A DNA stretch of 29,487 bases from a virus. Of the stretch, positions 1-25,699 are shown in pieces. The notes under the pieces were generated by a model. That model saw only the letters and a program-made list of their open reading frames with translations. It was not told the DNA's origin and did no database searches. Where the stretch lies: IMG/VR virus record IMGVR_UViG_3300025168_000435, positions 1-29,487 of that record. One strand, 5' to 3'. Made by a program: the position numbers and the translations under genes. Within the stretch, counting starts at the first letter, position 1; every line of letters starts with the position of its first letter.

Positions 1-3000
1 AAGATGTCCAACGGGAGTGAATCATCTTCATTTTCAGCTTGGTGAGCCATACCTTCTACAAGGTCAGCAGTTACACCAAGGAAACTAGCCCAAGGGTCCA
101 AGCGTTTGTAGCTAATCCAGCCGTCATCTGTTTTAATTGAGTATGGTTGGTTACCTGCGCTCAACCATATTTGTCTTTGTTGCGAATCTCGCGGTCCACC
201 GCCAGTTAACTTACCGGCAGTAATAGCTCCCAATGCAGTAACAGTCATCATACTTCCAGTAACCAGACGTCCAACGGCATCAGCCTTTAGATTAGGGTCA
301 CCACCGTAGATAGCTTGGTCATACTCAGGCTTAAGCTTAGACTTAACTAGCTTCCACCCGTCAAACATTGGGCTAAACTGACGGTCAACAAACCATGTAG
401 CTAGGTTTGTCGGGGTGTTAACGAAGGGTACAATCAAACGTCCTACTGGATGCTTGGCAAGTCCTCTTTGAAGGGCTGCACCGGCTCCTTGTATTGCACG
501 AGACGCTGGGTTGGCACCTAAGTTCGGGTTGTTAGCTGATGTGAATGTAGCTTCACGTGCAAGACGTAGACCTTCTTTGGCAACATTGCCGAGGTCGTTG
601 TCCCACATATCATTAAAGAGTTCAGTAGCTTTCTCACGGATGAGATACTTAGCATCATCACCTGCTTCACCTACTTGTTCACGTGCCATACGTTCAGCTT
701 TGTTCCACATAGTACGGGCGCTATACATCTTCCCGTCCTCAGTCATAAGGTCGAACTTCTTCTGCACCCATTTCTGCTGTGCGACTCCATCAGAAGGATG
801 AACGTCTTTAGCTTTCTGAGTTAAATCAGCGAGTACGTGAGCACGATAGTTTGTCTGTTTAGCGAACTCATCGACAGCTCCCAATGCTCGGAGAGGGAAG
901 GTTCCAACACCATGTAACCAATTCATAACAGTACCAGCAGCAGTGTTATCTAACCCAGCTACTTCAGCTACATTAGTTCTACCCCGGTGCATACCTGTTG
1001 CATCAGTTAGTGAAGACCTGCCGCCTGGGTCAAGCTGACTTGAACCTTCACGTAGGACTACGGGTATCATCCCTAGACTTTCCATTGCTTGTCTTGGGAG
1101 GTTTGCAAGCATAGCTAATTGTTGCTTTGCGTTAGCATCAGTAACAAGAGCACGACCAATCATCTTCTCAATAGGCATGATGATTGTATTCATCCATGAG
1201 CCCATTGCGTTAACCGTCTGTGTCTTAACGCCAGATAGTAGTGATGAGTAGTAAGCTTCCATTAACACGTGACCCCAGCCCATCTTGTAGCGGCTGTTGG
1301 ATACACGCATTGCGTTGACATCGCCCTTCTCTATAGCAAGGACGGTTTGTTCATACCACTTCTCGCCGTCAACTTTACCGTTTTCGATAGCGCCAACTAG
1401 CTTAGTGAACTCTTCGGTTTCTACACCATCGACATACTTGCCCTCGAGTTCAGTGGTAGTAATTGCAGAACCCTTACCTTTACGTCTACGTGATGCAAAC
1501 GCACGAGCTAAGGATTCCATGTTTGTAATAACAGAATCAGACGCAGCACCTAGTTGTTTCTCAACAACCATTGCTTGAGCAATCATCTGTGGGGGAGGTT
1601 CTTTACCTTCTTTCTTCAGGTCACGTATGGTGATGATGTTCTGCTTATGCTGACGTAACAGCGCAGCTTCAACATCTTGCATCGCATAGATATGAGTAAG
1701 TGAATCTTCAAACACTCGTTGACCACTTGTAGCAATCTCAGCGAGAGCTTCTGTGCCCTCAACATTAGATGTCTCATAAATTGTATGAGCACGTTGTTCA
1801 GCAGCAATAAGCTTTTCTTCATACGACATAGCTTTGAAGCGTTCATCATTACGACGTAGGTCACGTGCTTTGATAAACAAGTCACGCGCTGTGTCATCAC
1901 TAGATACAAGGTCTGGTCGGCCCTCGAGGTCACTAGGTATGCTATAGACTTCACCAATGTCAGACGCAGTTGAATCTAGGTAGACAACACTGCCATCCTC
2001 ATTCACGACGTTACCATCATACTCAGGAGCACGTTGAGCAGCTTTCTCTGCTTTAGCTTTACGTGCAGCACCTGTGTTGTCAGGCTCTTGGAATAACTTA
2101 TCAGCCTTACCCATACGTTCGAGGATTGCTTCTCTGTTGTTACGGCTTAAGCCTATAACATCTTTAACCTTTACATCCTTACCACTGACTCCATCTGGGA
2201 AGGGCCAACCCGATTGTCCACTTACATTAGCCGATGCGCGGCGAGGGTGAAAGGTGTCGTAATCAGCGCCACTAAAGGTTAATAAGACTGGCACCTCTTT
2301 GACACCACGTTCGTGCATGGCTGCCATACGGTGACGGCCTTCGTGACTGTCAGCTCCTTTAATAGTGCTTCCACTACCATCACCACGAATATATAAACGC
2401 GGTGTAGCAGTAGGGTCCCCGAAGGGAGTAGAAGACTCAGGGTCACTCATCTTGTCGTAGTCAAACTCACCATACACTGCGTCTGGACCATCCATCTTGT
2501 CGGTCCCAAGTTTCTCACCCGGTTTTGGCTTACGGTATTTTCTTTTAGCTGTGGCGATAATACTCTGAACCCCCTCCTCGCTTGGCGTAGTAGCACGAAT
2601 AAAGTCCAATGGGGCTATCCATGCAACTGCAGATGTGCTGCCATCATCAGAGTGGTGACCAGCAGTTGAGCGTTTAATTAACCAATCTAATCTATCAGGT
2701 TTCCACGCAACGGTTTCAGCCATTGACATAGGCTCTGCCCCCTTCCCACCACGTTCAAACAAAGCGTCAAACACTTCTTTAACTTTAGGGTCAATCTTAA
2801 CGTCCACTGCTGACCCAGCAACGCGACGATAGATGTCAAGCATAGCTGTAGCTAACGTCTGGAAGACACCACGTAGACCTTGAGGTGCGCCTTCAGGAAG
2901 GGCCCCTTCTCTTACGTATAGTTCAAACCCACGTGCGAACTTCTCTTCACCGTTTACGTCCCAGCGTCCATCAGTAGCGCCTACCCATTCATCTAGTATC

Positions 3001-6000
3001 GTACGTTCGGCTGCAGTGAAACCACCGTCAGCTTCCGGCATACTATAGTAACGTCGGCGAACAACGTGTCCCATCTCGTGAACAGCAGTTGAGGCATCAG
3101 GATTGTTTAGCCCACGAATGTAAGCCTTACCATCTTCACCAAACTCGGTGACACCTTTAGCTGTATCGTATGGGTCAACTGCCTTACCTTCGTCTTGGAA
3201 AAGGAAGTCACTCTTCTTGCCATACTTAGGCTTCTTAGCGAGGACTAAAGGTCCAACTTGGATTACACGCTCGGCACCAATGACAGGCTCTTGTGTGGTC
3301 CTATCGTAGAAGTATGAGTGACGCTCTGGGTCAAACCCAACTTGCACATACTCTGGGTCATTAAGTGCAGCCTTGGCTTCTGCCATAGTTGCTTTCTTTG
3401 TTCCATTCTCAAACGCTCCATCAATGGTAGCGAATGGAGACTTAGCTCCACCTTTGGCTACCCGGAGAGATTGTGTTTCTTTAGCACCAAACGTGGCGTC
3501 AGTAATGACAGCGACAGCTCGGTGTGAGATTGGTTTGCCATCAGCACCATGAATCGTTGGGACCCATGTGCCATGATTTGAATACGCTGGGATGTCTAAA
3601 CGTAGCCCAACTTGTTGTCCATCTTTGATGGGTGCATTTACTTTATCAACCTGACCTTTCTTTAGAGCAGACTTCATTTGAGGAGCAGTAGCAGCCGGAG
3701 GTATAAACTTATACGGGGCCACTGGCTTCAACTCATTGACTAGAGTCTGGTACTCACTTGCTGTTACTCCACCTTTCTCGCCAATAGTGGCTGCGGCATC
3801 TTGCAGTGCAGCTGAACGGCCCTGCTGAACGCTAGTGTCTTGGAATAACGAGGTAGGACGCAATGTTGCCGCACGACTACCCATGTGTGGGGACTTCGTG
3901 TCGAACATGAAGGTGTCCTCTACAGGAATATCTAGAAGTTTGACGGCCCATGCTTCAGCCTCTGCCTTGGAGTCAAAGGCTCTTACGAACTTATCCTCCG
4001 TTCTGCCTTGATAAAGGTCACTTAAAACCCATCCCTGCATACCTTCTGAAATATCGAACCTATCCGTTGATGGAGGGGCAGCTTCACCCACACCGTTCTT
4101 CTTAGCAAACTTCTTAGCAAGCTTAGGAATCTGGCGGCCGTATATAACATGAGCTGGGTCTTTGTCAGTACCTCTTAAAGATGGGAAAGCATCAATCTTC
4201 CTCCGGCCTAAGCCGGTAACTTCTCTAGCTGATTCTACATCAGCAAAGCGGATACCATCGTAGCCTTCTTCAGCAGCAAGCTTGAACATACGTTCAACAC
4301 CACTGTTTAACCATGTCTTAACGAAAGGGTGGTCTGGGGTTGGCTCGGCAGTTATCTTCTTCTGAATAGTAAGTAGCTTATCCCTCTCTGCTGCAGCGGC
4401 GCGGAGTTCCTTATTAATCTCCTCAAGGTTACTTTGCTGTTTAGCCCTAGAATCCCTACTTGCATACTTCTTCTTTCTTAGGTTGGCAGCTTCGTCCTGC
4501 AATCGCGCAACATCTTTCTTGGCTCTCTTAAGGTTGCCAGTAACTTCTCTTGCCTCCTCTACAGAAACTCTAGGCTCACCTTCCCAACGACCTTCCTGAC
4601 CTTGACGAGTCCAATCACTTTGCATCTCAAAGACATAAAGTATTTTCTTATCGCCTTCTATTTTGTCACCAAAGCGAACATGGAACATGGTGTTATCACC
4701 AAAGTTATGTACAGCTTCAGATGGCATCTTGGGTTTTGGGTACCGCGCGTTTATGCGACCCACATCAGCAGGAGCATCATCCTTCCAACGAACAGCAAGC
4801 TCGCGGTAATTCCCTACACCTTCTGGAACCCACGCATCATACTTCGTATTGCCCGGGTCATACTCGCTCACAAATTCATCAATAATCTCGGTCCTAATGG
4901 AATCATCTCGGAGAATCTCTTCGATGTCGGGGCCCCTGCCAGGCCAAAGGTCTTCATACATAGCAACAAGCTCTCCATCTGTTGCCGTATGTAGTTCGTT
5001 TCTATACTCCTCTACCTTTGCATCTCGCATACTAGGGTCCGACTCCGGGCCGGTAGGGAATATTTCTTCCTCTACCTCGACTGGCTTGAAGTTCGCCTTA
5101 GCGTCACCCACGGTTGCATTAGGGTTAGACTCAAGTAACTCATTAAGCCCAGTGAAGTCCCACTCAGCGTTCTTACCACCGATAGACTTCTTGACGTTAG
5201 CAAGTGAGTCATTATCGTTGAACTTCAGTAGACCGTCGTAGGTCGTATGGAAGAACTTGGTTGTATCTACTTGGAACAAACGTGCACCACCAGCGGCTTG
5301 ACCAACAATCATGTGTTCAGGTCCAAGCCCAAAGTGGGCAGCGTGTGCAGCAAGAGCTGAGGCTGTTGGGCGGTCAACATCAAAGGATTCCATCCAAGGA
5401 CGAATCTCCTCTTCTGTGTATACCTTAGCGGCTTCTTCGTTGGCTTTGTTTACATCACCAGTTTCTTCAAACTTCTTACGGCCAGCCTTCAGAGCACGTA
5501 GAGGTATCAATAGACTGTCTACAGCGAGACCAATGCCTAAACCTTCAATGGCGTTCTTAAGGCGCCCAGTTAGCTCGCTGTCTTCCTCATCAGAAGCAAG
5601 GAACTCGGAGATAGGGTTAGCAAGTGAAGGTGAAGACTGAATGAGGTCCGATAGTCGGCCCTCGTTTCCTTTGAAGAACATAAGGTCTGTAGCTGCACCT
5701 TGTAGGCCAGCGGTAACCAGTTCATTACGGATAGTCCCACCCTTTAGGAAGGCACGAGGTGTGCCACCCATTAAACCTTTGCCGGCCTTTGTGGCCTTAA
5801 GTGCACCAGCGGCCTTAGCGCCTACACCAGCACCACCCATCATAAAGCCGGCACCAAAGTTGACGATGCCATCAACAACCCCACCAGCCATGGTCTTAGA
5901 TTCACCTAAGCCAAAGTTGTCCGGGATGTCATAGTCAAGGCCAAAGATAGTTGGTAACTCAAGGACGCCCTCAACGGCGCCAGCGACGCCTCTAGGTACA

Positions 6001-6116
6001 CCCATGGCTATATCGCCAACGGTTCCCCAGAAACCTAGTTCTTCACCTAAAGCCTGACGGCCTGATTGGTCAAAGTAAGTTTCGTAGATGTCATCTGTAT
6101 TTTCGTTCGATTTCAT
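1..6116 (-). CDS. gp16-like internal virion (ejection) protein D, C-terminus cut by window edge
   Basis: The frame is open from an ATG at 6116 to the left edge, about 2,038 codons without a stop in the parts I translated. It follows the gp15-like gene with 2 nt between stop and start, and no clear Shine-Dalgarno. T7 gp16 (1,318 aa) forms part of the ejectosome and carries an N-terminal transglycosylase; I see no such domain here. The N-terminus (residues 20-90) is glycine-rich and hydrophobic. Residues about 445-640 resemble a phage polyvalent-protein domain: NYREL near 450, EMQSDW at 497-502, and after a charged coiled-coil-like insertion (about 515-590) HPFVKTW at 596-602 and GYDG near 620. 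A zinc metallopeptidase motif HEMGH lies at 1013-1017 with a possible third ligand in EEKFARGFELY from 1057. A ParB-like SHEGRHR lies at 1257-1263. Identity as gp16 rests on position and size; the domain calls are by motif only. Confidence 0.85.
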   Translation of the reverse strand, partial: MKSNENTDDIYETYFDQSGRQALGEELGFWGTVGDIAMGVPRGVAGAVEGVLELPTIFGLDYDIPDNFGLGESKTMAGGVVDGIVNFGAGFMMGGAGVGAKAAGALKATKAGKGLMGGTPRAFLKGGTIRNELVTAGLQGAATDLMFFKGNEGRLSDLIQSSPSLANPISEFLASDEEDSELTGRLKNAIEGLGIGLAVDSLLIPLRALKAGRKKFEETGDVNKANEEAAKVYTEEEIRPWMESFDVDRPTASALAAHAAHFGLGPEHMIVGQAAGGARLFQVDTTKFFHTTYDGLLKFNDNDSLANVKKSIGGKNAEWDFTGLNELLESNPNATVGDAKANFKPVEVEEEIFPTGPESDPSMRDAKVEEYRNELHTATDGELVAMYEDLWPGRGPDIEEILRDDSIRTEIIDEFVSEYDPGNTKYDAWVPEGVGNYRELAVRWKDDAPADVGRINARYPKPKMPSEAVHNFGDNTMFHVRFGDKIEGDKKILYVFEMQSDWTRQGQEGRWEGEPRVSVEEAREVTGNLKRAKKDVARLQDEAANLRKKKYASRDSRAKQQSNLEEINKELRAAAAERDKLLTIQKKITAEPTPDHPFVKTWLNSGVERMFKLAAEEGYDGIRFADVESAREVTGLGRRKIDAFPSLRGTDKDPAHVIYGRQIPKLAKKFAKKNGVGEAAPPSTDRFDISEGMQGWVLSDLYQGRTEDKFVRAFDSKAEAEAWAVKLLDIPVEDTFMFDTKSPHMGSRAATLRPTSLFQDTSVQQGRSAALQDAAATIGEKGGVTASEYQTLVNELKPVAPYKFIPPAATAPQMKSALKKGQVDKVNAPIKDGQQVGLRLDIPAYSNHGTWVPTIHGADGKPISHRAVAVITDATFGAKETQSLRVAKGGAKSPFATIDGAFENGTKKATMAEAKAALNDPEYVQVGFDPERHSYFYDRTTQEPVIGAERVIQVGPLVLAKKPKYGKKSDFLFQDEGKAVDPYDTAKGVTEFGEDGKAYIRGLNNPDASTAVHEMGHVVRRRYYSMPEADGGFTAAERTILDEWVGATDGRWDVNGEEKFARGFELYVREGALPEGAPQGLRGVFQTLATAMLDIYRRVAGSAVDVKIDPKVKEVFDALFERGGKGAEPMSMAETVAWKPDRLDWLIKRSTAGHHSDDGSTSAVAWIAPLDFIRATTPSEEGVQSIIATAKRKYRKPKPGEKLGTDKMDGPDAVYGEFDYDKMSDPESSTPFGDPTATPRLYIRGDGSGSTIKGADSHEGRHRMAAMHERGVKEVPVLLTFSGADYDTFHPRRASANVSGQSGWPFPDGVSGKDVKVKDVIGLSRNNREAILERMGKADKLFQEPDNTGAARKAKAEKAAQRAPEYDGNVVNEDGSVVYLDSTASDIGEVYSIPSDLEGRPDLVSSDDTARDLFIKARDLRRNDERFKAMSYEEKLIAAEQRAHTIYETSNVEGTEALAEIATSGQRVFEDSLTHIYAMQDVEAALLRQHKQNIITIRDLKKEGKEPPPQMIAQAMVVEKQLGAASDSVITNMESLARAFASRRRKGKGSAITTTELEGKYVDGVETEEFTKLVGAIENGKVDGEKWYEQTVLAIEKGDVNAMRVSNSRYKMGWGHVLMEAYYSSLLSGVKTQTVNAMGSWMNTIIMPIEKMIGRALVTDANAKQQLAMLANLPRQAMESLGMIPVVLREGSSQLDPGGRSSLTDATGMHRGRTNVAEVAGLDNTAAGTVMNWLHGVGTFPLRALGAVDEFAKQTNYRAHVLADLTQKAKDVHPSDGVAQQKWVQKKFDLMTEDGKMYSARTMWNKAERMAREQVGEAGDDAKYLIREKATELFNDMWDNDLGNVAKEGLRLAREATFTSANNPNLGANPASRAIQGAGAALQRGLAKHPVGRLIVPFVNTPTNLATWFVDRQFSPMFDGWKLVKSKLKPEYDQAIYGGDPNLKADAVGRLVTGSMMTVTALGAITAGKLTGGGPRDSQQRQIWLSAGNQPYSIKTDDGWISYKRLDPWASFLGVTADLVEGMAHQAENEDDSLPLDI

Positions 6117-6118
6117 AT

Positions 6119-8683
6119 TTAATTTTTATTCTGTCCGGGTAAATCTCGCATAAAGAAACTCTGAAGTACCACGCCTTGAATGGCTTTAACCTGTTCTATT
6201 GGTGTGCGCCCACTGGTAGCAGCGTCACGTTCAATTAAAGATTTAACGTTAGGAGAGAAGGCGTTTATTATCTCACCCCACTGCGCGTCAGTTGTGGCTT
6301 CATACTCATCCCAACTATTAACCATAGGGAAGAAAGCCGGGTGAATAAGGTCATGGTCCACCTCAACGGTTCTATCTCCGTATTGAAGTTGGCCTGTTTG
6401 TATTTCTTCGAGAGATAGACCACTTCGGTCAATACTCTCATCAGTAATAGAGCTAACCCCTGCTTGACGAAGTGCAACTATGTCACCATCTTCGTCCGGA
6501 GTTTGTGCACGTATTGTCCTCTCGAATACGGCCTTATCATGTTGGATTCTTTCAACCGACTCTTTATAGGTTTTATTGTCTTCATACCCCTCCGTTTCTG
6601 TTGAAGACCAAACATCATGGTAAAGACCTCCTAATTCTTTTTTGGTTAGATTGACGTAGTTGTCTGTATTGTCATACGGCCGTTGTGGTACATAAGAGCC
6701 ACCACCTACACGGTCAGGACCAAGGAAGCCAGCTAAGGTGTTATCCTCTGTTGACTCACTGTCAAACAGCCAGTTACCTATGGCATCTATCGGGCCTGTA
6801 TTATTCGTAGCAACACCACGAGCTTCACTTAGGCCCCCCATCAGTTGGCCTTGAGCTTTATCTAACTCAGCCTGACTTTCATTTAGTTGGTCCAGTCGTA
6901 CTTGTTCCGCACCAGAAAGGTCATCTTCTTCTTTCTTATCCTGTAACTCAGCTTGAGATTGTAAATCCGCTTGCTGCTTAGTTATTTGACCAACCGGTTG
7001 AGCCGTTTGTTCAGCCGCGAATCGTGCGGTTAGACGTGCGTCAACTAAACCTGCAATCGCGGCAAAATCTCCAGTCATTGGTACACCACCTTCAGAAGTA
7101 GCAGACCAATCCCTTACGACTTCTAATATTATTTGGTTAGCCTCAGACTGAAATTCTATTTTACGCATTACCGCTGCAGTGTATCGGCCGTCATTCATGC
7201 CAAACATTTCCTTGGCGTCAGCTATCTGTGAATCAAGTTGAGCAAGGTATGTACCAGCAACTGTTTCTCCTAGAATACGTTTACCGGAATCTCTGTAGAA
7301 ATCAGTCGCTATCTTTTCGGTGTTCAAATACAAACCTGATTGGTTGATTAAATCTGATGTATGCTCGGGAGTTAAACCCTCGATTTCACTTATGAATGTG
7401 TTGATTTCTGTTTGACTGGCACCGTTAGCAATTCGATTTCTAATTTCAGTAAGGTTACGAGCTGATATTTCATTTGCGGCTACAACATCTCTCCTAGACA
7501 TTGAGTAAGCAGTATTATCATTGGTGGTCATTTGTGTTTTTAAGTCATCAAAGGCTTTATACTTTAGCTCCTCAACAATCTGCGGTGGGTAACCCTGCAG
7601 CTCTTGCTCAATATAAGCTATAAACTCATCTCTATTGGCTTCAGTAATAGGTGCACCATCCTCTCCACCAGTGTATAAGTATCTATACATTGCACCATTA
7701 GCGGCATTCACTACTTCTGAGCGATTACCTGTACTACGAGTATCCTGAACTTTCTCAGCCTGTATTAGTTGTTGTTCTAAGTTCTGTATGAGCTCTTCCT
7801 TTCTAGCTTTTCCTAGCCCATTTAACTTGAAGGAATCAGATTGAACCGCTGTCAGTAACTCTTGAACATCATCAACGTCACCCATGTTTGCATTATTCTT
7901 TGCAAACTCAGTAATAGCGGCCACCTGGATGTCACCCATCTGGTCAGGCTGTAACTGTATAGCTTCAGAGTCAGACTCATAGAAAGCTCCAGAGTGAGCG
8001 TTAAGTGCGGCCACAAGGTCACCTTCGCCACCACCCTCAGACCACTCTAGGAGAGCATCTTGTTGGTCCTCAGTCCACGCTTCGACATTCTCATTGAACA
8101 TCTTCTTCGTGTGGGCTTTGGATACCTCACCTTCCCATGTAGCATTAATCTTTCCTACAGAATCACCTTGAATCGAACGGAACCACATGTTTTCCGCGGT
8201 GGAACTTGGGTAAGCCCCAACTACGGTGTTATAAGCTTGCTCCTGTATAGCAGCGAGGTCGGTATCAGGATTGTTTCCAGCCGCAATTAGTTGACGGTCA
8301 AGCTCAAGCTGGTACGCTCTACTGAATTGAACAGCTTGTTGACGAGCGTGGAACTTATAGAACTCTACGTCACGACCAGAGAGGTCTCCGGTTTCATTAT
8401 ACTTAGCTAAATCAGCGTTGACTTTATCTTTGTATGGTTGCTCTTGCTTACTAAACTCTAATGCAGCAGCTTGTGCTTCCACATCGCGGTCTTCTTGACC
8501 AGCTTCGTGCATCATCTTTAGACCTTTAGATAGGTCTTTAAGTCCTGCACCTAGTTTATAGAAAGGGTCATCCTCAACTCGCAACTCACGAGCTTTATAT
8601 GCTTGGACAAAGTTGTCCGAGATACGTACTTTTTGCTCATCAAACTGTTGAGCTTCTTCGTTATAAGATATGCGTTTAGCCAT
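6119..8683 (-). CDS. gp15-like internal virion protein C
   Basis: An 854-residue protein, mainly helical and polar, rich in Gln, Glu and Ala, with no signal peptide or membrane segment. It lies between the gp14-like and gp16-like genes, the position of T7 gene 15 (747 aa). In T7, gp15 is part of the internal core stacked on the portal and is ejected to form the trans-envelope channel with gp14 and gp16. A charged segment near residues 590-625 (repeated Gln/Glu/Asp/Leu) could be a coiled coil. The ATG start lies 9 nt after the gp14 stop and has no obvious Shine-Dalgarno, so translation is probably coupled. Assignment is by synteny and length; I see no diagnostic motif. Confidence 0.85.
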   Translation of the reverse strand: MAKRISYNEEAQQFDEQKVRISDNFVQAYKARELRVEDDPFYKLGAGLKDLSKGLKMMHEAGQEDRDVEAQAAALEFSKQEQPYKDKVNADLAKYNETGDLSGRDVEFYKFHARQQAVQFSRAYQLELDRQLIAAGNNPDTDLAAIQEQAYNTVVGAYPSSTAENMWFRSIQGDSVGKINATWEGEVSKAHTKKMFNENVEAWTEDQQDALLEWSEGGGEGDLVAALNAHSGAFYESDSEAIQLQPDQMGDIQVAAITEFAKNNANMGDVDDVQELLTAVQSDSFKLNGLGKARKEELIQNLEQQLIQAEKVQDTRSTGNRSEVVNAANGAMYRYLYTGGEDGAPITEANRDEFIAYIEQELQGYPPQIVEELKYKAFDDLKTQMTTNDNTAYSMSRRDVVAANEISARNLTEIRNRIANGASQTEINTFISEIEGLTPEHTSDLINQSGLYLNTEKIATDFYRDSGKRILGETVAGTYLAQLDSQIADAKEMFGMNDGRYTAAVMRKIEFQSEANQIILEVVRDWSATSEGGVPMTGDFAAIAGLVDARLTARFAAEQTAQPVGQITKQQADLQSQAELQDKKEEDDLSGAEQVRLDQLNESQAELDKAQGQLMGGLSEARGVATNNTGPIDAIGNWLFDSESTEDNTLAGFLGPDRVGGGSYVPQRPYDNTDNYVNLTKKELGGLYHDVWSSTETEGYEDNKTYKESVERIQHDKAVFERTIRAQTPDEDGDIVALRQAGVSSITDESIDRSGLSLEEIQTGQLQYGDRTVEVDHDLIHPAFFPMVNSWDEYEATTDAQWGEIINAFSPNVKSLIERDAATSGRTPIEQVKAIQGVVLQSFFMRDLPGQNKN

Positions 8684-8692
8684 GATTATTTA

Positions 8693-9184
8693 TTAGTCGC
8701 TCATAAGCATGCCACCGATGCTCAACAGTTCACCTAGACCGAAACCAGCTGGCGGAGCGCCAACCTGTGACCACCCTTGGTTTACCCTGGATTCCATAGC
8801 AACATGAGATTGAGTAGCCATTGAGTTAATATTGCGGCGAGACATTAAAGCTGCACGTCTAGCGTTAACATCTGTCTTCAATGCAGCCCGGATGTTATCC
8901 ATCTTCGAGGCAACAACATTACTCTCGCCAGCAGAGACGCCTTCTATGGCTGCTCTCTTGTTAAGTTTGGAGGCTATACCTTCAGCGTTGTTTGCAATGA
9001 TGCCAGCCTCCTGTTGACCCCTTGCGGTCAAATCCTTTAGGGAGTCATAGTAAGCCTTCTTTGCGTTGCGCTCGTTAATCTCTGCGTATTGCTTTCTATT
9101 TCGCCAGTTAGCTTTATCTGTCCCTGCCTTACTCATTCCGCTTATCATGGCACCCCCAGCACTCATTAATCCTGCTTCACACAT
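8693..9184 (-). CDS. gp14-like internal virion protein B
   Basis: A 163-residue protein that starts MCEAGLMSAGG, followed by a long helical Ala/Asn/Arg-rich body and a Gly-rich hydrophobic tail (GLGELLSIGGMLMSD). T7 gp14 (196 aa) likewise starts with a short hydrophobic segment containing an early Cys and has a long helical body; it inserts in the outer membrane during DNA ejection. The start is supported by a strong Shine-Dalgarno (GGAGG, about 8 nt upstream of the ATG) in the end of the gp13-like gene. Stop and start of the two genes are adjacent. Called by position, size and composition. Confidence 0.85.
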   Translation of the reverse strand: MCEAGLMSAGGAMISGMSKAGTDKANWRNRKQYAEINERNAKKAYYDSLKDLTARGQQEAGIIANNAEGIASKLNKRAAIEGVSAGESNVVASKMDNIRAALKTDVNARRAALMSRRNINSMATQSHVAMESRVNQGWSQVGAPPAGFGLGELLSIGGMLMSD

Positions 9185-9634
9185 TTAATTATCCTCCGGA
9201 GAGAAGCTCACGAAAACAAAATCTGAGTCGGGTTGAGCTTCCCCGATGTCAAACCCCATCCAACGTAGCCACTTAAGGTGCAGCTCGTTGTCTTTATGGG
9301 CAAAGTTGAAAATGAAATTGTAATCTTTGGTTATACGTTCAAACCACCACTTGCAATTACGTAAAAAATACACAGAAGCTTTCTCAATATCCTCAGTACC
9401 TAACAACCAGATTCTACAAGCCCCATCCAAGTCCGTAGGGACAATCCCAAACATCGCTGCAGGGGTGCCATCAACATGGAAAGTCATAGGTTGTGAACTG
9501 GCGTAGAAACCATCGACCAACGCTTCAATAAACATAGGGCCACCACGTGAAGCTTCAATCTCCACGCTATCAGCGTAGCGTAGGTTTTTGCCGATGTAGA
9601 CGGCATCCTCTAAGATAGAAGCTAGAACTCTCAT
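9185..9634 (-). CDS. gp13-like internal virion protein A
   Basis: A 149-residue protein directly after tail tube B, which is where T7 gene 13 (138 aa) lies. The pattern fits that family: an N-terminal region on position or constraint, a central glycine-rich strand (MTFHVDGTPAAMFGIVP), then WLLGTEDIEKA, a Trp-rich helix and FNFAHKDNELHLKWLRWMGFDIGEA near the C-terminus. This resembles the acetyltransferase-like (GNAT) layout seen in such phage proteins; catalytic activity is not implied. T7 gp13 is needed for virion assembly but is not a stable virion part. The ATG overlaps the gp12 stop (TAATG) and is preceded by a GAGA stretch. Confidence 0.85.
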   Translation of the reverse strand: MRVLASILEDAVYIGKNLRYADSVEIEASRGGPMFIEALVDGFYASSQPMTFHVDGTPAAMFGIVPTDLDGACRIWLLGTEDIEKASVYFLRNCKWWFERITKDYNFIFNFAHKDNELHLKWLRWMGFDIGEAQPDSDFVFVSFSPEDN

Positions 9635-12048
9635 TATATTCTCTGCGACCTCGCTGAGTAGGACCCCTCGAAGTAGGCTGTGGATATTGTGCTAGGCAGG
9701 GGAGAGTCGTTAATAATTTTAATAGTTATATCTTTGGCTCGACTTCGGATTGCATAAGAGAAATCACCTGAACTAATTGGGTTGGAACCTATGAGTAACC
9801 CCGAGGCACCCAATGTTCTACCGGTGAATGGATATGAATAAGCCGTGCGTTGAGATGGAGTGACTTCAACACGGAAGTAACCAGAGTCTGAGTATTCTAC
9901 AGTGCCTCTACGTAGTTGTAAGCGTCCTTCGTGGATAACTTGGTTTTGTGCATCTCTGAGAGCAGGGGGAGAGAACTCATACGTCATCGTATATTTCTCA
10001 CCAATCCAAACAGATGTAGAGCTATAGTTGCCCTCAACATAAAGATTAACCTGGTCAGCAACCTGGCTTGTAACATTAAGTATGCTTCCCCCGGTCACCG
10101 AGCTAGTGCCCCGAGTGACTACTTCCATACTAACATCAGCACTAATCTTATACGGCAGTACAAACTTAGTTCTGTCTGTTGTCGCGTCATAAGTAACAGT
10201 AGTATCTGTGTCCTTAATGCGGCGGTCTATGTGAGTTAAATATGTGGAGTTGAGGTCAATCTGTTTAGCTTGAAAACTTATCTTCTCAAGGTACCAAGCG
10301 TCAGACCGACGGTTAACCATATACAGTGCGTTGTTAGCAAACATCATCCCCCTGATGTTAGAACTATCAAAGGTAAACTTGGACCAACTTGATTGGACTT
10401 CCTGACCACCACTGGCAAAATACTTATATACATATAATGAGCCGGCATCGTCAGACGATAAGCCACACATTAGGTTTTCGGTGTCGAACGTGGATAGCTT
10501 TCGGAGGTCTCCAGGGATATATCGAGGTATGTGAAGTGTAATCTCGGTATCAATATATTGGCCCTCAACATTGGTTGAAGGTGTTAATTGATACACACCA
10601 CTATACTCACCTCGCTCAAACCCAAAGAAGATACGGTTCGAGGAGATGACTGGACTTGCTGTATTTGCAGAACGGTAACTTGAAAGCAGTGTAGCCTGAA
10701 CACTATCGTTAGAAAGTATTGGTGTGCCGGTTACTTTGAACTGGTCATTATCACCAAAGACGATTAAGTCATCTTGGAAGGACACAGCGCTATGTAAGTT
10801 GACAGCGTTGGAGTGGTTAATAACCAGGTTCATACAGTCAGAGGCTAATGAGTCCACTACCGAAACTGTGAAGAAGTTGAATAACTCTCCAGCTTCGGAC
10901 ATTGAGATGACGTCATTACTAATAAAACCGACTCGGTTCTTGTGGAAGAATATATCCCTTATCTTGCCTCCAATAAAGCCGGGGTTTTTATTAGTCGCAG
11001 CATCACCGGCAGTCCGATTGCCCCAACTTAATGTTTCGACATCTGTCCCGTCAGCTTGGCCAAAAGTATAGGTACCATCACCATCACTACTTAAAACATG
11101 CGGCATAGTGGAGGCATCTAATTTATACTTAATGTTTGGGCCTACAGTCTCAACCCAGTTACCCTCATCCATCACACCACCTGTAGTTGTTTCTTTACCA
11201 ACAAACTTTACATAGTAATCATCAAAGGTGGACTCAGGAGCTCCAGAGATTTGCAAGATATACCCATGAGGGCCGTAGACCGGCAGGGTGTTAAACTCTT
11301 GTACACTGTCATGTATACTTGTGATGTAATCATCACCATTGGTATGACTAACTGAGACCTCCACTTCAGTCGTTGTGTTTGTTCTATATATGAAAATAAC
11401 TGGGCCCTTTGACGTAGCTGTTATGTTTGCGTATACGTTAATAGCCGCAGCAATAGTAGTGGCGTCTGTCTCTATTTCACCAGTGTCGCTGGTAGAACCG
11501 CTTGTCCCAGATACGGTCCATTTATATGAACCATCACCAGCACTCCCCTTTAGGAAGATAAGGGTATGGCCGCCAGATGTACCACTAACCAAATCAGCAT
11601 TCTCTGCGGAAAGGTCGGCTGCCATTGCAGTGGTCTTATCAGGGTTAACAATGTAAGTAACATCAGCTAACGTGAGAAACTTATACTCAGCGGTTGTACT
11701 TGTAGTTGCTAAATAAGACTCACCGTCAGGCTTAGTAACTGTCTTTGCTGCCCCATCAAGACCATACACAGCCAACTCACCGTCTTCGATAAGTATAGTG
11801 TGCTGCTCAGATGAGCCACGGTCAACGAAATGAACACCATCTATTGTGGTGCTTGTAGAAGGTGCGACGTAATCTTTTAGTTTGGCAATAGCCTCGGTAG
11901 GTGGACGCTTCTTTAACCCATCAACAATGGACGAATAACCATTCTCCTGGGATTCAGCAAAACCCTCACGACGGATGGTCGTAGGTTGTTGACTAACCCC
12001 ATTGAAGATGCCTCGAGTGGGAAAGGAAATTAGTGCGTCTCTTGCCAT
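9634..12048 (-). CDS. Tail tubular protein B (gp12-like)
   Basis: An 804-residue protein, close to T7 gp12 (794 aa), which forms the conical tail nozzle. The N-terminus has the family signature: FPTRGIFNGVSQQP at residues 9-22 and a stretch on KKRPPTEAIAKL near 47-58. A conserved stretch in the middle (GGKIRDIFFHKNRVGFIS, then VINHSNAVNLHSAVSFQDDLIVFGD) is typical of this family. The rest is rich in Ser/Thr and beta strands, as expected for a nozzle protein. It starts at an ATG overlapping the stop of the gp11-like gene (TAATG), so the two are probably translationally coupled. Confidence 0.95.
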   Translation of the reverse strand: MARDALISFPTRGIFNGVSQQPTTIRREGFAESQENGYSSIVDGLKKRPPTEAIAKLKDYVAPSTSTTIDGVHFVDRGSSEQHTILIEDGELAVYGLDGAAKTVTKPDGESYLATTSTTAEYKFLTLADVTYIVNPDKTTAMAADLSAENADLVSGTSGGHTLIFLKGSAGDGSYKWTVSGTSGSTSDTGEIETDATTIAAAINVYANITATSKGPVIFIYRTNTTTEVEVSVSHTNGDDYITSIHDSVQEFNTLPVYGPHGYILQISGAPESTFDDYYVKFVGKETTTGGVMDEGNWVETVGPNIKYKLDASTMPHVLSSDGDGTYTFGQADGTDVETLSWGNRTAGDAATNKNPGFIGGKIRDIFFHKNRVGFISNDVISMSEAGELFNFFTVSVVDSLASDCMNLVINHSNAVNLHSAVSFQDDLIVFGDNDQFKVTGTPILSNDSVQATLLSSYRSANTASPVISSNRIFFGFERGEYSGVYQLTPSTNVEGQYIDTEITLHIPRYIPGDLRKLSTFDTENLMCGLSSDDAGSLYVYKYFASGGQEVQSSWSKFTFDSSNIRGMMFANNALYMVNRRSDAWYLEKISFQAKQIDLNSTYLTHIDRRIKDTDTTVTYDATTDRTKFVLPYKISADVSMEVVTRGTSSVTGGSILNVTSQVADQVNLYVEGNYSSTSVWIGEKYTMTYEFSPPALRDAQNQVIHEGRLQLRRGTVEYSDSGYFRVEVTPSQRTAYSYPFTGRTLGASGLLIGSNPISSGDFSYAIRSRAKDITIKIINDSPLPSTISTAYFEGSYSARSQRI

Positions 12049-12650
12049 TAACTTACGCGGTCAATAGGTGAACCTCGACGGATAGCGTTGTATGTATCCA
12101 TGTTGTCAAAGATAGAGTGGTTAGCAGTCCACCCTTCGTATTCAATAAGAGAGTTCCATGCGTACCTCTCGTCCATTGAAGTGAACTGGTGGTGAGTCAC
12201 TGAGCCAACCATACGGTCAGATAGAATACGTGCAGCACGAATGGTGACATATTGTTTCGCTACGTGAGGTAGGTCTTCAAAAGCTAACCCATATACAACT
12301 GTAGCTTTAATCTCATCAGTAAACTCATACGTATGTTCCTTGCGGTCATACAAGCTGGTGCCACGCATGACAATATCTATGTCCCCTGCGTTATGAGACT
12401 CAAGGTCTAACCTTAAGATAGAACCACTGACGGTTATTTTATTGTCAGCAGCATCGGGAGTGAACTCAACGTCGAACTCTGTATTGAAGTGCCAACCCTT
12501 AGCTTGGGTATCTCGGCTTACTTCAGTCAGTAAGTTCAACGCTATCGTTGTGTCTGCTGGTAGTGAACCAGTTAGGGAATTAACCGGTGACTCACCAATA
12601 GTGGCAAGCATCGTGTTAATGGCTTCGAGTTTTGTTAGAGAAGATAGCAT
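12048..12650 (-). CDS. Tail tubular protein A (gp11-like)
   Basis: Taken from the ATG at 12650 this is 200 residues, almost the length of T7 gp11 (196 aa). The protein begins MLSSLTKLEAINTMLATIGESPVNSL, the usual N-terminus of the family, and contains DTQAKGWHFNTE near residues 46-57. gp11 makes the ring between portal and nozzle. The frame stays open upstream to a GTG at 12710, but that would put 20 extra residues through the terminator hairpin, so I reject it. No good Shine-Dalgarno precedes the ATG. The gene follows a terminator-like hairpin, so it may need its own promoter or read-through. Confidence 0.93.
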   Translation of the reverse strand: MLSSLTKLEAINTMLATIGESPVNSLTGSLPADTTIALNLLTEVSRDTQAKGWHFNTEFDVEFTPDAADNKITVSGSILRLDLESHNAGDIDIVMRGTSLYDRKEHTYEFTDEIKATVVYGLAFEDLPHVAKQYVTIRAARILSDRMVGSVTHHQFTSMDERYAWNSLIEYEGWTANHSIFDNMDTYNAIRRGSPIDRVS

Positions 12651-12666
12651 AATTATATAGGGAGAT

Positions 12667-12699
12667 AAAAAGGAGGAAGCAGCGTGAGCCACTTCCCCC
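12667..12699 (-). terminator. Hairpin terminator between capsid and tail tube A genes
   Basis: On the minus strand an 8-bp arm (GGGGGAAG with CTTCCTCC, one G-T pair) continues through four more pairs (TGGC with GCTG, two wobble) to a TCAC loop. Five Ts follow directly. The site is 47 nt after the capsid stop. T7 has its main RNA polymerase terminator T-phi in the same place, between genes 10 and 11, where it raises capsid mRNA relative to the downstream genes. The structure is read from the sequence; function is inferred. Confidence 0.75.
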
Positions 12700-12745
12700 A
12701 AAACACACACACAATCAAAGGAGAGAACCCCTTATGAGTGTTTTA

Positions 12746-24655: not shown

Positions 24656-25699
24656 TTATGCCAGTGCATCTAGTTTTTGAATGGCCATAACTGAGTTCAG
24701 TGGGCTTAGGTGACTGTAACGCAGAGTTGTTTTTATATCTACGTGACCAGCCAAGTTAGCAACCACTGGTAGACTCTCACCATGCTGCACTAAGAGGCTA
24801 CAGAACGTATGTCGGCACGTGTGCCATATAAAGTCTTTATCTTCATGCTTACCTAGTATTTTCCTGAGACGCTCCCAGGCGGAACGGCAGGTGCTCTTAG
24901 AGAGACGAGTAAACGGCCCGTCTTGTTGGTACTGAACGTCCACCCCACGTGGATAGACAGCGCTGAATGCTCGGCGTGTCAGTGGGATGGTGCGGTCTGG
25001 GCTACTGGTGTGTTTACCACCATGTATGAATACAGCATGGTCATCTCCCCATGGGCGTATGTCCTTAAACTCAATGGTCAATGCTTCCATCAACCGAAGG
25101 CCAGTGTCGCACATGAATTGAAAGAGCCGGGCATAGTCCCCGTCACCAAGTGTGTTAAAGGCAGTGATGATTTTCTCTTGCTCCGGCATACTGTAATAAC
25201 TGATACGAGTTAAGCGTTCCGGCCTACGTTCTATCGCAGGACGCCGGCGAACCCAACCACGTTTATAAGCATGTCGAAATAAAACAGACAGGCAGCTTAA
25301 CTTTCTGTTAATCGTGCCATCAGCTTTGCCCTTCTCTCGGAGATGCAAGACAAAGTTATCAATACTAACTTCATCTATTTCATCCATCTTCTTAAGTGGG
25401 CCAAAGTAATCCACCAGAGCATGAGTGTTAAGTACAGCAGTACGTTCCCCACGTTGACCGGACCAACGGTGTGTTATCACATCGTCGATACAATCTTGTA
25501 ATGTTTTACCTTGGCTACGTGCCTTGTAGACTCGCATGTCTACGGTCTTACCATTCATAACATCAGCTTCAGTCTTGGCTGCCCAAGCTTCAGCATCATG
25601 CTCAGTCTTGAATGATTTCCTTAAGCGGCCGTTAGGTAAGCTCGAGTGTCTTACTTGAGCTTCCCAACTGTTGCCGCGTGGTGTTACTGATTTAGTCAA
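24656..25699 (-). CDS. int: Tyrosine integrase
   Basis: A 347-residue phage integrase. The catalytic set is complete: R202 (CDTGLRLMEAL), K229 (HGGKHTS), H293 and R296 (HTCRHTF), H319 (LAGHVD) and nucleophile Y328 (TLRYSHL). Residues 1-50 look like an arm-binding N-terminal domain (GNSWEAQVRHSSLPNGRLRKSF, then EAEAWA-like text), and 65-160 like the SAM-type core-binding domain. The start is a TTG with a perfect AGGAGG 5 nt upstream; no ATG fits. The enzyme would act on the half-tRNA site just downstream. No excisionase was recognised nearby. Confidence 0.95.
   Translation of the reverse strand: MTKSVTPRGNSWEAQVRHSSLPNGRLRKSFKTEHDAEAWAAKTEADVMNGKTVDMRVYKARSQGKTLQDCIDDVITHRWSGQRGERTAVLNTHALVDYFGPLKKMDEIDEVSIDNFVLHLREKGKADGTINRKLSCLSVLFRHAYKRGWVRRRPAIERRPERLTRISYYSMPEQEKIITAFNTLGDGDYARLFQFMCDTGLRLMEALTIEFKDIRPWGDDHAVFIHGGKHTSSPDRTIPLTRRAFSAVYPRGVDVQYQQDGPFTRLSKSTCRSAWERLRKILGKHEDKDFIWHTCRHTFCSLLVQHGESLPVVANLAGHVDIKTTLRYSHLSPLNSVMAIQKLDALA

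Follow-up and report, generated by a model that had tools for sequence, protein, structure and literature searches.

A T7-type ejection protein, the middle of which has been turned into an exchangeable bay for effectors delivered into the host, is probably what is encoded by the minus-strand gene at positions 3..6116 of the viral record IMGVR_UViG_3300025168_000435. The window is the whole stretch of 29,487 nt, and residue numbers are those of the 3..6116 protein. In this protein the conserved ends typical of gp16 enclose about 1,100 residues of polyvalent-protein cargo, at the centre of which lies a homologue of a domain found in classic polyvalent proteins, here called the NYRE/QSDW/GYDG module. 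Besides opening the way for the DNA, this protein probably carries early weapons into the host. The features of the gene are as follows.

3..6116, minus strand: gp16-like ejection (internal virion D) protein, 2,038 amino acids, truncated at the contig end (open reading frame, PHROG 6651, annotated relatives)
5058..6044, minus strand: conserved gp16-type N-terminal region, residues 25-353, partly common to simple gp16s of 970-1,550 amino acids
5052..5264, minus strand: companion region, residues 285-355, with FFHTTYDGL...EWDFTGL; similar to the FYS/GVKxEElxWtGL...VTKxEV region found ahead of the module in other carriers
4098..4829, minus strand: NYRE/QSDW/GYDG module, predicted alpha/beta domain, residues 430-673 (profile, alignment, predicted fold)
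4329..4610, minus strand: variable helical hairpin between QSDW and HPFVKTW, residues 503-596 (AlphaFold2 model, alignment, comparison with the related phage L002)
3840..4097, minus strand: C-terminal tail of the module, residues 674-759, ending in SLFQ (...ITPxMRxxVxxGQPLFQ in relatives)
3207..3806, minus strand: L5-gp82/PHROG_586-like domain, residues 771-970 (PF25735 at E 6e-5, below cut-off; homology matches)
2745..3170, minus strand: polyvalent-type zincin-like metallopeptidase domain, residues 983-1124 (HEMGH and the helix with E1058; profile)
2112..2726, minus strand: ParB/Srx-like cassette, residues 1131-1335 (205 residues) with HEGRHRMAAM (alignment; missing from L002)
3..1463, minus strand: conserved gp16-type C-terminal region, residues 1552-2038, with homologues annotated as internal virion protein D in pelagiphages and roseophages

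A gp16-like protein of unusual length

The gene is the last on the minus strand and occupies the gp16 position, after the genes in the positions of gp11 to gp15. The C-terminal region of its product falls into PHROG 6651 'internal virion protein' (E 5e-41), and tblastn matches lead to internal virion protein D annotations in pelagiphages and roseophages. An earlier, sequence-only reading of this DNA had called the protein an oversized gp16 lacking a recognisable N-terminal transglycosylase, and both points are borne out: the open reading frame runs off the contig end at 2,038 residues, with a full length of about 2,286 residues estimated by alignment with L002, against 1,318 for T7 gp16, and no transglycosylase profile of Pfam matches it up to E=1. 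T7 gp16 is annotated with an endolysin domain; the N-terminal transglycosylase is a phage-specific feature (PMC8954989). While the place in the gene order and the internal virion protein D match are shared with T7 gp16, the window protein differs in its much greater length and its inserted domains, and direct comparison with T7 gp16 gave no significant similarity, so it is termed gp16-like rather than T7 gp16.

The NYRE/QSDW/GYDG module is a widespread unnamed domain

The motifs of the module follow one another as NYREL (436-440), HVRFGDK (479-485), EMQSDW (497-502), HPFVKTW (596-602), GYDG (618-621) and IPKLAKKFAKK (663-673), which is the order given in the sequence-only reading with slightly corrected numbering. 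That reading had also likened this order to a module of phage polyvalent proteins. A profile built from 64 relatives, none of them a gp16, scores the window module at 93.6 bits (E 7e-28), while the best of 990 composition-matched shuffles reaches 6.8 bits; the match is thus not due to chance. Searching with the module stretch recovered three further gp16-like proteins and one protein of 4,453 amino acids (L005) in which the module stands alongside PBECR5, 2H and RadC. In the alignment-based search the best 80 of at least 339 related stretches in viral contigs were kept, and 41 more were found in genome contigs of bacteria and archaea, some of which probably represent prophages or phage contigs. 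Pfam profiles on 16 other module carriers gave LPD22 in five, ART-PolyVal in four, LPD3 in two, and InPase, MuF_C, PBECR1, SLT, GGDEF and GNAT in one each. Many IMG/VR contigs (L020, L031, L032 and L041 among them) carry the module near the C-terminus of stand-alone open reading frames of about 730-830 amino acids.

The likeness to polyvalent proteins proposed in the sequence-only reading therefore holds, and neither of the outcomes named there as refuting it came about, although no curated polyvalent-associated profile matches the module, so the link to polyvalent proteins is made through unannotated parts of those proteins. Pfam and NCBIfam hold no curated family for the module, PHROGs nothing besides phrog_7348, and a sequence search of the PDB with the module profile gave no significant match. 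It is a widespread domain that is unnamed in Pfam, NCBIfam and the PDB, the LPDs of Iyer et al. outside Pfam not having been compared. The one PHROG in question, a profile of 2,564 positions labelled endolysin, is the only library profile to match module carriers well (the matches being to other carriers), and a label of this kind does not count as evidence for lysis; a giant module-bearing protein of Microcystis phage Mel-JY33 is likewise annotated as lysin. Both labels are probably mistaken.

Across 69 sequences Y437, E439, H470, E497, Q499, S500, D501, P597, W602 and Y659 are invariant, which, judged from the alignment, is an enzyme-like pattern. A domain so widespread, with enzyme-like invariants and without a curated family, constitutes a defined target for structural and biochemical work.

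Predicted fold of the module

AlphaFold2 predicts an alpha/beta fold for the module, with a mean predicted local distance difference test (pLDDT) score of 82.7 and a predicted template-modelling (pTM) score of 0.75, and a second model, of a natural relative (L019) with a shorter hairpin, gives the same picture (pLDDT 84.6, pTM 0.82). An ordinary gp16 helix bundle, which the sequence-only reading had named as an outcome that would count against its proposal, is ruled out by the model. That reading had further described a domain split by a coiled-coil-like insertion of about 65 residues, a description that does not survive comparison. The stretch from QSDW to HPFVKTW, 95 residues in the window and predicted to form a hairpin of helices 519-548 and 554-589, is 46-132 residues long in all 68 relatives and never missing. 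It belongs to a single domain as a loop of variable length and is no insertion particular to this protein, so that 'split' is misleading. The gp16-borne module instead lacks a stretch of about 70 residues after GYDG that most relatives have, the spacing from Y619 to Y659 being 40 residues in the window and about 100 in most relatives.

In a viral structure library Foldseek returned 17 models at E <=1e-3, all of them large phage proteins, some with polyvalent, ART-PolyVal or LT_GEWL in their names. Against the PDB neither the window nor the L019 model had a match at E <=1e-3, or indeed any with E <0.1. GNAT acetyltransferases head these non-significant PDB lists for both models, with a best single-hit probability of 0.60, and profile comparison places W602-R633 in register with alpha3-beta5-alpha4 of GNATs, which are known among polyvalent proteins. 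It could be imagined that the module is a divergent GNAT which on entry acylates some protein or nucleic acid of the host, a narrower form of the effector-bay explanation and compatible with it. However, besides the lack of any PDB match below E 0.1, the hhalign probability is only 1.3-1.7% and the canonical Q/RxxGxG/A pyrophosphate loop is absent from the module. The GNAT-like fold is hence a hint from modelling, below significance and useful as a lead only, and we consider the acetyltransferase identity rather unlikely.

The rest of the cargo

Downstream of the module lie three domains that the sequence-only reading had overlooked. The L5-gp82-like domain also occurs in hypothetical proteins of a Manatee Spring podovirus and of Roseobacter phage CRP-9, where their genes neighbour the one for the portal. 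Among the curated polyvalent-associated domains of Pfam, such as LPD and PBECR, none matched the window protein, the one hit being PF25735 (Phage_L5_gp82) below its cut-off; such a match is a convenience of the library and lies outside the definition of polyvalent proteins. In the zincin, HEMGH (residues 1013-1017, window 3066-3080) and EEKFARGFE (1057-1065) fit the carrier consensus HExxH...ExxAxxFE, and the profile score is 70.4 bits against 7.3 for the best shuffle. The order module, PLFQ, HExxH zincin is the consensus among polyvalent carriers and is also seen in L010; the window protein keeps it, with one extra domain in between. The ParB-like stretch HEGRHRMAAM, together with what flanks it, aligns to a phage protein in which an ART-like part is present as well; Pfam, the PDB and a search against phages returned no match for the cassette.

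Upstream of the module, a region of the form FYS...GVKxEElxWtGL...VTKxEV is found by a strict pattern in 49 of 99 carriers, gp16-type proteins included. Taken together, several disparate domains, the module, the zincin and the ParB-like cassette, stand between the gp16 ends, and homologues of the module are shared with the polyvalent network through proteins bearing PBECR1/5, ART-PolyVal, LPD3, LPD22, InPase, MuF_C and RadC.

The tripeptide LFQ ends three domains, at residues 757 (3840-3848), 972 (3195-3203) and 1341 (2088-2096), the last being the edge of the gain or loss of the ParB cassette. Among module carriers LFQ is 2.4-fold more frequent than a dipeptide-based expectation, partly by way of homologous module tails, and it is a weak candidate for a general processing site.

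Local replacement between near-identical phages

The phage represented by L002/L006 is 94-97.5% identical to the window in DNA and carries a complete gene of 2,113 residues. The two proteins are 92-100% identical across most of their length, falling to 28-38% at residues 361-440, to 55% at 521-560 and to 52% at 681-720. L002 cleanly lacks the 205-residue ParB-like cassette. In the aligned part the DNA alignment has gaps only within gp16, at residues ~355-461, ~537-572 and ~1130-1339. The gene is thus locally hypervariable and has gained or lost a cassette, and local replacement of this kind is the pattern expected of an effector under conflict.

Different inserts between the same ends in other gp16s

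Among 39 viral loci with a gp16-type C-terminal region, simple gp16s measure about 970-1,550 amino acids and large ones up to 2,938. The module is present in the window and three other gp16s, which form one clade (support 0.994), and other large gp16s carry different inserts between the same conserved ends. One gp16-like protein (L138, 420-7496) has a DUF3293/SAM-lyase-like domain (E 8e-15 and 8e-5), possibly an anti-restriction cargo; L133 has an insert with a weak methyltransferase match. NADAR (6e-5) and DUF4326 (8e-5) matches, both below the curated cut-offs, occur in L164 (5840-12682), and a weak match of nucleoside deoxyribosyltransferase type in L140 (3466-9459), which suggests NAD/ADP-ribose-related cargo in ejection proteins.

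Pelagibacter (SAR11) phage HTVC028P offers the complementary arrangement. Its gp34 (L203:3865-6729) has both the companion region (E 1e-20) and the module (E 5e-48) and directly precedes the gp16-like gp33 in the ejection block; unlike in the window, it is a separate gene of 954 amino acids, unfused to gp16, in which no zincin was found. The effector may therefore have its own gene within the ejection block or form part of gp16 itself. Since HTVC028P is an isolated phage with the module as its own gene, it would be a practical system. The gene immediately after its tail tubular B is annotated as acetyltransferase.

Proposed mechanism and its alternatives

It is possible to outline how such a protein might work. 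The conserved N- and C-terminal regions would perform the usual tasks of gp16, namely packaging in the inner core, bridging of the inner membrane and binding of the incoming DNA. Packaging of the protein and its injection with the DNA are what we infer from its gp16 identity. For T7, a review (PMC8954989) puts the C-terminal part of gp16, which binds DNA, in the cytoplasm of the host, and by analogy the part behind the N-terminal region would reach the host cytoplasm, bringing along the polyvalent core in the middle: the companion region, the NYRE/QSDW domain, the L5-gp82-like domain, the zincin and the ParB-like cassette. The cargo would enter with the first DNA and could act ahead of phage gene expression. 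The NYRE/QSDW domain would most likely act enzymatically on some host factor, perhaps as an acyltransferase-like modifier of proteins, with the helical hairpin and the linker before the domain diversifying as the parts that set target specificity, while the zincin may free the units or itself act on the host.

Several observations weigh against this picture. Support for delivery comes from sequence, and since similarity to T7 gp16 is undetectable, the cytoplasmic placement would rest on analogy. The proposed enzymatic role is argued from conserved polar residues, and the gp16-borne clade has lost residues typical of the family (E496 is replaced by F, and R633-Y634 are gone), so that activity or specificity may have changed, or activity been lost. 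The companion region, too, is weak in the window (9.1 bits, best shuffle 6.7), as compared with 14.1 bits in L002 and 69 bits in HTVC028P gp34.

Since gene order makes gp16 a protein of the virion core, and given these lost residues, the polyvalent-type middle might be thought structural, thickening the inner core or the ejection channel with no effector role in the host. This appears improbable to us: the module recurs in proteins of quite another make-up (with PBECR, ART, InPase or GGDEF) and in separate genes, simple gp16s exist without it, and the presence or absence of the cassette in near-identical phages suggests that the ParB part, at least, is dispensable for assembly. An equally improbable account makes the zincin the main unit, a maturation protease that would cut domain boundaries, for example near LFQ, during head assembly, so that the middle never enters the host. 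Zincins in polyvalent proteins have been proposed to release units by autoprocessing (Iyer et al., 2017; PMC5512222), the HEXXH domain found here is of that kind, and the three domain ends with LFQ and its excess in carriers would fit; but that excess is partly due to homologous module tails, in many carriers LFQ is missing from the domain boundaries, and N4 virion RNA polymerase, whose zincin is broadly of this type, enters the particle without being processed (PMC5512222).

Returning to the exchangeable effector bay, a more far-reaching version of it can be entertained, though with less assurance than the bay itself. The NYRE/QSDW domain would be an uncharacterised enzyme family widespread in the early-delivery proteins of phages, and gp16 of T7-like phages a general, recombining chassis for varied effectors (that enzyme, zincin, ParB-like, NADAR, SAM-lyase-like) directly behind the DNA channel, with a rapidly diversifying specificity loop.

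Relation to known systems and implications

The window protein resembles the polyvalent proteins of Iyer et al. (2017; PMC5512222) in bringing several unrelated domains together in a single, very large phage protein encoded by a late gene, in its zincin hub, and in a module that co-occurs with PBECR, ART-PolyVal, LPD22, LPD3, InPase and RadC. It differs from them in its chassis, a gp16-type ejection protein with conserved gp16 ends. N4 virion RNA polymerase is likewise a giant injected phage protein, in which a zincin is joined to further activities (PMC5512222), whereas the window gp16 has no RNA polymerase and is built on another chassis. Bbp10 of Bordetella phage BPP-1 and the Xanthomonas CP2 relatives share a homologous zincin segment (29-34% identity), but the gp16-type ends are not matched in them.

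The terms gp16 and internal virion do not appear in the main text of PMC5512222, and no paper joining polyvalent proteins with internal virion proteins or pelagiphages was found in the open-licence literature. The findings link the podovirus DNA ejectosome with polyvalent effector proteins, subjects treated separately in PMC5512222 and PMC8954989. If the proposal is true, gp16 homologues, partly placed in the host cytoplasm, would lend themselves naturally to protein delivery, and anti-defence effectors could be sought in the variable middle that gp16 has in marine T7-like phages.

Gene order in the remainder of the window

The window holds a T7-like gene set comprising RNA polymerase, integrase, a gp2.5-like single-stranded DNA-binding protein, primase/helicase, DNA polymerase, portal, scaffold and capsid, together with the tail and core genes for tube A, nozzle, gp13-like and gp14-like proteins. 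Two features adjoin the gp16-like gene.

6119..8683, minus strand: ejection gene in the gp15 position, 854 amino acids, with no significant family match
8693..12710, minus strand: neighbours in T7 order, namely gp14-like, gp13-like, nozzle (gp12) and tail tube A (gp11) (profile matches)

At window 24656-25699 the integrase gene adjoins that of the T7-like RNA polymerase.

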